A stretch of 35,479 bases of DNA, from positions 1 to 35,479 of the forward strand of contig JAFGAV010000033.1 of the NCBI GenBank assembly GCA_016933515.1, read 5' to 3'. Positions 10,101 through 26,115 of this stretch are shown piece by piece; the stretch's first letter is position 1, and each line of letters begins with the position of its first letter. The notes beneath the pieces are model-generated. The model saw nothing but the letters and a program-made list of their open reading frames with translations, was not told the origin of the DNA and did no database searches. The DNA comes from Candidatus Aminicenantota bacterium (GTDB lineage: Bacteria; Acidobacteriota; Aminicenantia; Aminicenantales; JAFGAV01). Position numbers and translations under genes: made by a program.

Positions 10101-10217
10101 AGGAAATGGACGGCCTTTCCGGACGGCTGCATTCGCTTTCGTCCAAGCCGGAGGAAGACCGTTCCTCCCGCCCCGCGGGATCGCGAATCTCTGCTATAAT
10201 GCGCCTCTGGTGGCAAG

Positions 10218-10754
10218 ATGACGCCCCTGGCTCATGCCGCGGTCGGGATGACCGCCTGGAAGCTTTCTTCGCGCCGCGGGGAGGCGAAGGCGCTTTTCAT
10301 TTTCATGCTCGTCTCCTGCCTCCCCGACATCGATCTCCTCTTTTACCATCTTTTCGGGCGCCCCGAAGTTTTCAAGCATCAGCTCTATTCCCACAACATT
10401 TTTTTCGCCCTGCTTTCGGCGGCGGTCTTTTTCCCGCTGTTGAAAACGAAGAGGGAAAAAGCGGCCCTGACGCTCGTGGCCCTCTCCCATCTCGTCATGG
10501 ATGTTTTCGTCGTGGACGACGTGGCGCCCGTAGGATTCCGTCCGTTTTGGCCGCTGTCGAACCTCCTTTTGAGCTTCGGGTTTTTTCCCTATGTCCGGCG
10601 CGGGACGCCGGCCCAGGTCTTGACCGTTGAAAACCTTTTCGCTTTGGGTTTGGAAACGGCCCTGTTCGCCGTCCCCGCCCTGATTTTCTGCCGCCGGGAG
10701 TTGGGGTATTTGTGGAAAACTCGAGTTCTCAAGAAAGATGCCAATTCCGCTTGA
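10218..10754 (+). CDS. DUF457 / YdjM-type membrane-bound metal-dependent hydrolase
   Basis: A 178-residue integral membrane protein. It has the family's His and Asp pattern: His6 in 'PLAHAAVG', 'CLPDIDLLF' (Asp37, Asp39), 'YSHNIFFALL' (His59) and 'LSHLVMDVF' (His91, Asp95). About four hydrophobic segments hold these residues. DUF457/YdjM proteins are thought to be metal-dependent hydrolases of the inner membrane, with substrates unknown. A TATAAT box lies 18 nt before the start codon, and no strong Shine-Dalgarno is present, so the transcript leader may be very short. A broken copy of the same gene and flanks is at 2487-2790. Confidence 0.85.
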   Translation: MTPLAHAAVGMTAWKLSSRRGEAKALFIFMLVSCLPDIDLLFYHLFGRPEVFKHQLYSHNIFFALLSAAVFFPLLKTKREKAALTLVALSHLVMDVFVVDDVAPVGFRPFWPLSNLLLSFGFFPYVRRGTPAQVLTVENLFALGLETALFAVPALIFCRRELGYLWKTRVLKKDANSA

Positions 10755-15731: not shown

Positions 15732-15923
15732 TCATGCTTCGAAGGCGATCTTGAGCACGACCTGAAATTCCCGGATCTTGTCTTCGCGAACCGCGCCGCG
15801 CTGTTCGACGACCTGAAAAAAATGGATTTTATTCCCTTCCGCCGACACTCTGTCCACAGCGTCGCGGACGGCCTCCGAAAAACCCGAGGACGACGTTCCG
15901 ACGACTTCGATCATCTTCAGCAT
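15732..15923 (-). CDS. Dodecin (flavin-binding)
   Basis: A 63-residue dodecin: 'MLKMIEVVGTSSSGFSEAV' and 'AVDRVSAEGNKIHFFQVVEQ' followed by 'DKIREFQVVLKIAFEA', which is the beta-alpha-beta-beta fold of these dodecameric riboflavin/FMN-storing proteins. The conserved 'EVVGTS' and 'VVEQRG' motifs are intact; the usual flavin-stacking Trp is absent here, with Phe55-type aromatics instead. Archaeal and bacterial dodecins are 65-70 residues, so the length is right. GAGAGG precedes the ATG at 15923. Its promoter (15997-15969) is next to a mobile element. Confidence 0.92.
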   Translation of the reverse strand: MLKMIEVVGTSSSGFSEAVRDAVDRVSAEGNKIHFFQVVEQRGAVREDKIREFQVVLKIAFEA

Positions 15924-15968
15924 GAGGGCACCTCTCTTCGTTACAGAGTCTGCATTTTCAAGCCACCA

Positions 15969-15997
15969 GTATGAGGGGCGTCCCGCAGCCTGTCAAG
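15969..15997 (-). promoter_or_regulatory. Promoter of dodecin, abutting a mobile-element target duplication
   Basis: On the minus strand TTGACA (15997-15992), 17 bp, then CATACT (15974-15969). The leader to the dodecin ATG is about 40 nt. The -35 directly follows the 9-bp target duplication (15998-16006) of the 82-bp element. Confidence 0.55.
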
Positions 15998-16006
15998 GCG
16001 CGAGAG

Positions 16007-16088
16007 GCTCTATGACGCCTTGTGTGGTGAATTCTAGTCTGAGGCCCAATGCTCACGCTAATGGATCGCACAAAACGTCATGGAGCCG
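16007..16088. mobile_element. MITE-like 82-bp palindromic element, copy 1, with 9-bp target duplication
   Basis: An 82-bp imperfect palindrome. The ends are GGCTCTATGACG and CGTCATGGAGCC; 16 of the outer 19 positions pair. It is flanked by perfect 9-bp direct repeats GGCGCGAGA at 15998-16006 and 16089-16097, which is the mark of a transposition event. In reverse complement it matches copy 2 (24888-24969) at 74 of 82 positions. It has no coding capacity, so it must be moved in trans. A 9-bp duplication suits IS256-, IS4- or IS1-type transposases; an IS256-type relic is at 22.5-22.8 kb. It sits in the 416-bp gap between dodecin and the Cys-rich peptide gene. Confidence 0.85.
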
Positions 16089-16261
16089 GCGCGAGATCCC
16101 GGGAGCGCGCACGGCAGGGGGCGGGGAAAGAACGACCGGTAAAAGACTGAAAAAACAGCATAAAAAAACATCGACCGAAAGTCTTTTTTGATATCGGTTA
16201 CATATTCCGCGTCGATGAAAAATCTTTAAGCTAAGCGCGCATTTCTTTCCCCAGTTATTGC

Positions 16262-24691: not shown

Positions 24692-24887
24692 CTTGCGTGT
24701 CGCTTCACGGCTGAACCGCTCATGGCGCCTCAACCCTCCCTCCCGGCCTGAAGCAGAATCATGCGGCGTTCATTTTGGAGCGCGGCGACGCGTGCCCCTT
24801 TGAAAGCGACCTCGTGAGGCCGTACCCCAAAAGAAGATCGACCTGGCGGGAGGAAGAAAGACGGAAATGTTCATCCGTTCGAAGGAA

Positions 24888-24969
24888 GGCTCCATGACGT
24901 TTTGTGCGGTCGTTTAGCGTGAGCCTTGGCCCTCAGACTAAATTTCACCACACAATGCGTCATAGAGCC
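24888..24969. mobile_element. MITE-like 82-bp palindromic element, copy 2, with target duplication
   Basis: The second copy of the 82-bp imperfect palindrome, in the opposite map orientation to copy 1. Ends are GGCTCCATGACG and CGTCATAGAGCC, and an inner palindrome centres on the TTGG near 24927. Flanks are TCGAAGGAA (24879-24887) and CCGAAGGAA (24970-24978): 8 of 9 positions identical, an aged target-site duplication. The right duplication is followed at once by TTGACT, as in copy 1. It lies in the 473-bp gap between the glgC leader ORF and the radical-SAM gene, where no other gene is seen. Confidence 0.85.
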
Positions 24970-24978
24970 CCGAAGGAA

Positions 24979-25007
24979 TTGACTTGCCGGGTGAGTTCGG
25001 ATAGTCT
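24979..25007 (+). promoter_or_regulatory. Promoter of the SPASM/twitch-like radical SAM gene
   Basis: TTGACT (24979-24984), 17 bp, TAGTCT (25002-25007). The -35 abuts the target duplication of the mobile element. The -10 is weak (3 of 6). Confidence 0.4.
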
Positions 25008-25086: not shown

Positions 25087-26115
25087 ATGACGCCACCAAA
25101 GAATGCGTCGATGAAGAAGAAGCCCGGGAAGCTCTCCTTGCTGACGAGGTATGTCTCTCACAGGCTGTCGAGCGTTCATCCCGTAGAGGTCCAGGCCTGC
25201 ATCACCAACGATTGCAACATGAAATGCCGGTACTGCGCCTGTCCCGACTTGCCTAAGGACAGCTTGCCCACCGCCGAGTGGAAAGAGGTGTTCCGTGGTT
25301 TGAGGCGCCTGGGGACGATCCGGCTCAAGCTTCAGGGGGGAGAGCCGACGCTCCGTCCGGATTTCGGAGAGCTGGCCGCCCTGGGCCGGGAACTGGGAAT
25401 GATCGTCGCCCTGGCTTCCAACGGGACGTTCATCGCCAAGAAACCCGAGCTCCTTGATGATGTCCATGAGCTCATTCTGACCCTGAATTCTCTGGACAAG
25501 GACGTCCAGGACGACCTGCGCGGACAGGGAAGTTTCGAGGCGGTCATGAAATCGATGGATCTCGCTCAGGAGAGGGGAGTGAGGGTCTTCAACAACATGG
25601 TCGTCAACAAGAAGAACTACGCCGAGGTTGAGCGCATGCTCGACTACTGCGAGAACCGGGGTGTGACTTTGAACGCCCAGCCCGTTGTTTTCGGCCGGCA
25701 GCATTTCGACTCGGGAGCCAAAAACATCCAGCTGTCCACGGAGGAGACGCGGGATCTTCACCGTCGCCTGGCGGAATGGAAATCCCGAGGGCGCGACGTG
25801 CTCTTTTCGACGGCCACGTACGCCCGGGCCGCGCTCTGGCCGGATTACGATGATTTGTGCCGTGAAGGCGACCGGCCGTCCTCATGCTTCGCCGGCCGAG
25901 ATTATTTTCACATCGAACCGATGGGAGAAGTCTATCCCTGCAACCTGCACATCGGCACGTTTCAGGCCAAGAGCGCCGTCAAGGACGGACTGCGCGAAGC
26001 GCTCCTCCATGCCCGGGACCACCGGTGCGAGGATTGCTGGCACCCTTACTTCAACGAGCGCAAAGCCCTGTTCGGGCTGAAAGGGAAATCCCTCAAGTCG
26101 GCGATCTTCGGCTGA
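25087..26115 (+). CDS. Radical SAM protein with SPASM/twitch-like C-terminus
   Basis: A 342-residue radical-SAM enzyme. The cluster motif is C43-NMK-C47-RY-C50; the SAM-binding 'LKLQGGEPTLRPDF' follows and 'LASNGTFI' is the next strand. The C-terminus has C-x12-G-x4-C ('CFAGRDYFHIEPMGEVYPC') and then 'CEDCW', which fits one auxiliary Fe-S cluster of the twitch/SPASM kind. Such enzymes modify peptides, proteins or small molecules. No RRE-like peptide-binding domain is visible at the N-terminus. The ATG at 25087 has AGAGGA upstream. A link to the Cys-rich peptide at 16.3 kb is possible but not shown. Confidence 0.88.
   Translation: MTPPKNASMKKKPGKLSLLTRYVSHRLSSVHPVEVQACITNDCNMKCRYCACPDLPKDSLPTAEWKEVFRGLRRLGTIRLKLQGGEPTLRPDFGELAALGRELGMIVALASNGTFIAKKPELLDDVHELILTLNSLDKDVQDDLRGQGSFEAVMKSMDLAQERGVRVFNNMVVNKKNYAEVERMLDYCENRGVTLNAQPVVFGRQHFDSGAKNIQLSTEETRDLHRRLAEWKSRGRDVLFSTATYARAALWPDYDDLCREGDRPSSCFAGRDYFHIEPMGEVYPCNLHIGTFQAKSAVKDGLREALLHARDHRCEDCWHPYFNERKALFGLKGKSLKSAIFG

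Follow-up and report, generated by a model that had tools for sequence, protein, structure and literature searches.

The window, i.e., the whole 35,479-nucleotide stretch analysed here, is one contig of an Aminicenantes MAG (assembly of 2.37 Mb in 123 contigs, about 90% complete). We found that it carries two copies of an 82-bp palindromic element, one upstream of a dodecin gene and the other upstream of a gene encoding a radical SAM protein, and that a promoter lies between each copy and its gene (Table 1). The palindrome with identical flanking 9-mers recognized in the initial annotation is real, but had been placed one base too high (16006–16087, not 16007–16088), while the second copy described there at 24888–24969, in reverse orientation, about 90% identical and with flanks agreeing at 8/9 positions, was borne out by direct reading and BLAST. 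Folding of the copy 1 palindrome gave a z of −3.9 relative to shuffled sequences (0/200 shuffles as good), and an Rfam search of the window returned no match. Elsewhere in the window, positions 2485–2727 and 10192–10514 hold two diverged (77–78%) copies of a stretch of more than 200 bp.

Table 1. Elements, duplications, promoters and genes in the window, and loci in host and sister genomes (L numbers)
Feature	Position	Strand	Description	Basis
MITE copy 1	16006..16087	+	82-bp palindrome, ends GGCTCTATGACGCCTTGTGTGG / GGCTCCATGACGTTTTGTGCGA	read directly, BLAST, folding
Target-site duplication, copy 1, promoter-proximal	15997..16005		9 bp, GGCGCGAGA	read directly
Target-site duplication, copy 1, distal	16088..16096		9 bp, GGCGCGAGA, perfect repeat	read directly
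−35 hexamer, copy 1 promoter	15991..15996	-	TTGACA, directly abuts duplication	consensus
−10 hexamer, copy 1 promoter	15968..15973	-	CATACT, 17-bp spacer	consensus
Dodecin gene, downstream of copy 1	15732..15923	-	63 aa	ORF; Pfam PF07311, E=2e-19
MITE copy 2	24888..24969	-	82 bp, reverse orientation, 90% identical to copy 1	
Target-site duplication, copy 2, distal	24879..24887		9 bp, TCGAAGGAA	read directly
Target-site duplication, copy 2, promoter-proximal	24970..24978		9 bp, CCGAAGGAA; 8/9 to TCGAAGGAA	read directly
−35 hexamer, copy 2 promoter	24979..24984	+	TTGACT	consensus
Weak −10 hexamer, copy 2	25002..25007	+	TAGTCT, 17-bp spacer; 3/6 to TATAAT	consensus
Radical SAM protein gene, downstream of copy 2	25090..26115	+		Pfam PF04055, E=3e-24
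Long forms and remnants with inner repeat	L071:1879-2116, L072:1418-1696, L073:1324-1602, L074:1460-1783; L061-L070			
Element-free orthologous promoters in sister	L006, L007, L008, L009, L014, L018, L061, L066, L069, L070, L072			

Copies and forms of the element

BLAST with copy 1 gave 42 matches in the 2.37-Mb host genome, most of them full-length and 82–93% identical, and a scan of the same genome with the end pattern revealed further short, long and one-ended forms. The host total amounts to 42 two-ended copies, which range from 42 to 324 bp with most at 82 bp, plus about 10 one-ended remnants. The 35 copies close to 82 bp in length have a mean pairwise identity of 85%; truncated or internally deleted copies are represented by forms of 42–55 bp and by the one-ended remnants. 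The element is short, palindromic over its 82 bp, ends in inverted repeats and contains no transposase gene, in agreement with the initial annotation, which had called it non-autonomous for want of an ORF. With about 50 copies in the host, it constitutes a real MITE family of the non-autonomous, inverted-repeat kind.

The long forms (238–324 bp) have the same ends but enclose another repeat, which starts with CTGGGGGAGGG and ends with CCCTCCCCCAG. The one-ended remnants mostly belong to this long type, so the 82-bp form may have arisen from the long form by deletion and then burst. In the sister genome the inner repeat also occurs by itself, at about ten places, and it is matched by positions 24699–24802 of the window, just before copy 2. 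A third, nested palindrome (CCGGAGACAGCT...AGCTGTCTCCGG) of REP-like look lies within the long forms L062, L068 and L074; in two of the three its position is that of a contig end.

Duplications, empty sites and promoter register

The flanking 9-mers of the 42 two-ended copies agree at 9/9 positions in 14 cases, at 8/9 in 13 and at 7/9 in 5. Agreement of at least 7/9 is thus seen in 32/42 copies, compared with 0.23% expected from random pairing of left with right 9-mers, and the left 9-mers are all distinct (42/42). As the sister species we used the Candidatus Aminicenantes MAG 'M_DeepCast_400m_m2_293' (L104), congeneric with the host, through contigs covering 0.68 Mb. At about ten loci, e.g., that of tRNA-Phe, it has the orthologous promoter without the element; the alignments of these empty sites are uneven in quality, the best being those for L014, L008, L018, L061, L069 and L072. 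The promoters are therefore older than the insertions. One insertion, upstream of secA, is common to both species, with 82 bp in the sister and 55 bp in the host. The 9-bp duplications, the dozens of independent insertions and the empty orthologous sites together establish transposition. The initial annotation had already argued for real transposition from the independent duplications of two copies, and the 42 two-ended copies with distinct 9-mers and the empty sister sites uphold this. Searches of the genome and its relatives, alignment of flanks and comparison of sister sites, all of which it had proposed, revealed other copies, flanking duplications and no deep conservation, with one insertion shown to be shared.

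What the initial annotation did not contain is a fixed register with a promoter at nearly every insertion. We found TTGAC (at least 4/5) exactly 9 bp from one element end in 43/52 copies and at 8–11 bp in 47/52, compared with just 2/42 copies having it at 9 bp on the opposite flank. Of 94 flanks, 32 have exact TTGAC at offset 9, compared with at most three at any other offset between 0 and 59. Four of the remaining five copies, those with no TTGAC at 8–11 bp, still match the −10 consensus at 4 to 6 letters. The logo of the 43 sites reads TTGACa, a 17-bp spacer and TATAaT, which is a textbook sigma70 promoter; the duplication adjoins the −35 box, and the −10 box follows about 17 bp further downstream (boxes were assigned by consensus, and the genomes are draft MAGs). 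The element itself is indifferent to orientation, its two ends facing the promoter equally often (21:21). The next gene is oriented with the promoter in 47/52 copies, mostly 30–90 bp off, and the downstream genes include secA and those for AdoMet decarboxylase, H+-pyrophosphatase, a MoxR-type ATPase and phosphoglycerate mutase, as well as tRNA-Phe and tRNA-Leu.

The −10 box is part of the pattern. A −10 match of at least 4/6 accompanies 81% of the perfect-TTGAC sites; in the sister genome the corresponding figures are 38% for TTGAC in non-coding DNA (p=2e-7) and 5% for TTGAC inside coding sequence. Among one-letter-off TTGAC sites the proportion is 92%, against a background of 12% (p=3e-8), and the −10 of the imperfect −35 sites averages 4.58/6, with 11/12 scoring at least 4. 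Gene calls for these controls came from a simple codon model, and the −10 was scored at spacers of 16–18 bp in sites and controls alike. Since imperfect −35 sites have equally good −10 boxes, the whole promoter, beyond the −35 box alone, seems to be recognized. The insertions are thus in register with −35 and −10 boxes beyond the level of intergenic TTGAC, at promoters that were there before the element. At L015:1502-1583, TTGACA lies exactly 9 bp away on both sides and the duplication agrees at just 4/9 positions; this copy is perhaps an insertion between divergent promoters.

We determined that the 82-bp form is confined to the host and its sister, with 0/57 further members of the order possessing it. 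The ends GGCTCTATRACGNNTNGTGTGG, within 2 mismatches, are present in 12/94 genomes of the order, and the element interiors vary between its lineages. Two-ended elements outside the host also have 9-bp repeats (9/9 at L114 and L136, 8/9 at L310). Among 31 non-host elements examined, which belong to five families of the order (f1, f2, f4, f6 and f7), TTGAC (at least 4/5) lies at 8–10 bp in 22, and 18 of those 22 have a −10 of at least 4/6. The promoter register is hence a rule common to several families of the order. Some single ends outside the host have no promoter, and could represent false matches or the distal end of an element that has broken. In 396 phylum-wide genomes, a stricter end pattern gave three single matches beyond the host, of which one (G004) is a relative and the other two look like chance.

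ISL3-like ends and the search for an autonomous partner

End A of the MITE shares 22/27 bp with the terminal repeat of an IS of 1298 bp situated at the end of IMG/VR contig IMGVR_UViG_3300013414_000057 (L257:10165-11462; ends GGCTCTATAACGAATTGTATGG), which encodes an intact ISL3 transposase of 409 aa (PF01610, E=4e-69). The initial annotation knew of no described family with these ends; the ISL3 terminal repeat does match them, yet we do not assign the MITE to ISL3. ISL3 elements of Aminicenantales have the ends GGTTCTCTTCCATATTGTGTGG, 8-bp AT-rich duplications and a transposase 38% identical to that of the L257 IS. In turn, MITEs of Bacteroidota (Mucilaginibacter and another) are mostly 320–360 bp long and have nearly the same ends; their 8-bp duplications are perfect, their targets AT-rich, and TTGAC is not in register with them. 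L143–L161 represent the Mucilaginibacter family, whose members measure about 320–360 bp, have ISL3-like ends and are flanked by 8-bp duplications without mismatch. The MITEs of Aminicenantales duplicate 9 bp, and since neither this length nor the promoter register is ISL3-like, we did not class them within the family. Judged by its terminal repeat, the MITE has ISL3-like ends.

No autonomous element with the MITE ends was found in the host assembly (about 90% complete, 123 contigs) or in the related genomes searched. The full-length IS with the same ends that the initial annotation proposed to look for was therefore not recovered from either, the L257 IS being one with similar ends. The ISL3 transposase domain PF01610 gave no match in the host genome and relatives, nor did DDE_Tnp_1 (PF01609) or HTH_ISL3 (PF13542) in the host genome; relatives did yield PF01609 matches. 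One Bacteroidota match to PF01610 (L163) lies at a contig edge, with no MITE-type end found nearby. Among the frames listed inside unpaired ends of Mucilaginibacter and Aminicenantales no transposase was recognized by eye, and the viral contigs scanned contained no ends of the Aminicenantes form. Since no autonomous element was found, we can only infer to which family the transposase belongs and how it targets promoters.

Target recognition and comparison with known systems

We consider it likely that the MITE is moved in trans by an ISL3-type transposase into sigma70 promoters at a fixed register, with the promoter kept. The enzyme would be a DDE transposase absent from the assembly, its kinship being suggested by the terminal repeats, and its target an occupied or recognizable sigma70 promoter on which strand transfer takes place at a set distance. 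With a 17-bp spacer, the 9-bp duplication would span about −44 to −36, centred at −40 and running up to where the −35 hexamer starts. Everything from the duplication downstream would stay intact, so the element could multiply next to genes without costing the host much. Around −40, class II activators make contact with sigma region 4 and the alpha CTD, and it is at this position that the transposase might dock on promoter-bound RNA polymerase, through the same two surfaces. Given the rest of the model, we lean towards recruitment by docking over a reading of DNA letters alone; docking is best supported because imperfect −35 sites have good −10 boxes. Two points weigh against the model: an autonomous element with the MITE ends did not turn up in the host or in the related genomes searched, and the duplication measures 9 bp, where Bacteroidota MITEs with the same ends and the ISL3 elements of Aminicenantales make 8 bp.

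A similar picture could arise if the transposase read N9-TTGAC in the DNA, with no part played by RNA polymerase, non-coding TTGAC being mostly promoter and in-gene insertions being purged. TTGAC is indeed by far the strongest signal of the target logo, short sequence preferences are common among IS, and a one-sided half-site is possible. Yet a TTGAC reader would be indifferent to the −10, and the −10 enrichment, both at struck TTGAC sites over non-coding TTGAC of the sister (81% vs 38%) and at imperfect −35 sites, where the −10 is at least as good, speaks against it. On balance, we find the reading of N9-TTGAC rather doubtful. A transposase that read the letters of both −35 and −10 directly would yield much the same pattern as we observe.

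Very improbable, in our judgement, is that insertion is roughly random and that selection makes the register by keeping copies whose end at −45 helps as a regulatory or UP-like element or as an insulator. The surviving copies occupy the class II activator position and at least one insertion (secA) is retained in both species, but both ends face the promoter equally often, copies occur freely in truncated or internally deleted form, tRNA and other genes have orthologous promoters that manage without the element, and a 1-bp register in 43/52 copies is tighter than known helical-phase needs. As for an immobile sequence formed at each promoter, whether a conserved operator palindrome or a REP-like repeat, it would fit an element that is palindromic, present in high copy number, at a fixed promoter distance and without an ORF. 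The distinct 9-bp direct repeats at 42 sites (32 at 7/9 or better, against a null of 0.23%) and the empty orthologous sites in the sister nevertheless rule out a non-mobile operator palindrome, which we rejected; this reading retains next to no probability.

Returning to transposition in trans into promoters, we see an even chance that it reflects a bacterial transposase lineage which docks on sigma70 RNA polymerase and inserts base-precisely upstream of the −35 with the promoter intact, as a counterpart of Ty3-type elements. The yeast retrotransposons Ty3 and Ty1 integrate at a fixed place beside the promoter via the Pol III transcription machinery; the likeness to the MITE lies in the way of working only, Ty elements being eukaryotic retroelements with no kinship to it. 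To our knowledge, few bacterial transposons have a fixed kind of target (attTn7, dif, REP and res sites). Our search of the open literature, with few subscription papers covered, turned up no report of a bacterial element that targets sigma70 promoters, nor of one aimed at them as a class with a 1-bp register. The model, if true, explains how about 50 harmless MITE copies can exist in a small genome, offers a natural promoter map for uncultured bacteria, with every element marking a −35 box, and indicates a transposase that would put DNA just upstream of promoters.

Among known systems, the ISL3 family resembles the MITE in its GGYTCT...TTGTGTGG-type ends, with the L257 repeat as noted, and has a PF01610/PF13542 transposase, but it duplicates 8 bp at AT-rich sites, whereas the MITE duplicates 9 bp at promoters. 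MITEAba12 is likewise a short, non-autonomous inverted-repeat element with 9-bp duplications, yet its ends are of the ISAba12 type (GGCTTTGTTGCA), and its targets revealed AT-richness but no motif (PMC6382973). Correia elements are also short and non-autonomous with inverted repeats; they carry promoters, however, and do not aim at them, and in the same review of prokaryotic MITEs promoters figure as something carried by MITEs, none as targets (PMC10969869). Elements of the ISAjo2 group (IS1202 family) duplicate 5 bp of target at a distance of 5 bp from the XerC site of dif/pdif, and the authors suggested that the transposase may touch bound XerC (PMC10132070). They share with the MITE, if it is moved as proposed, the DDE type and a duplication that takes up precisely the distance to a protein-binding site (PMC10132070), but differ in having another transposase family, one orientation and a dif target, as opposed to the promoters, 9-bp duplications, both orientations and non-autonomous nature of the MITE.
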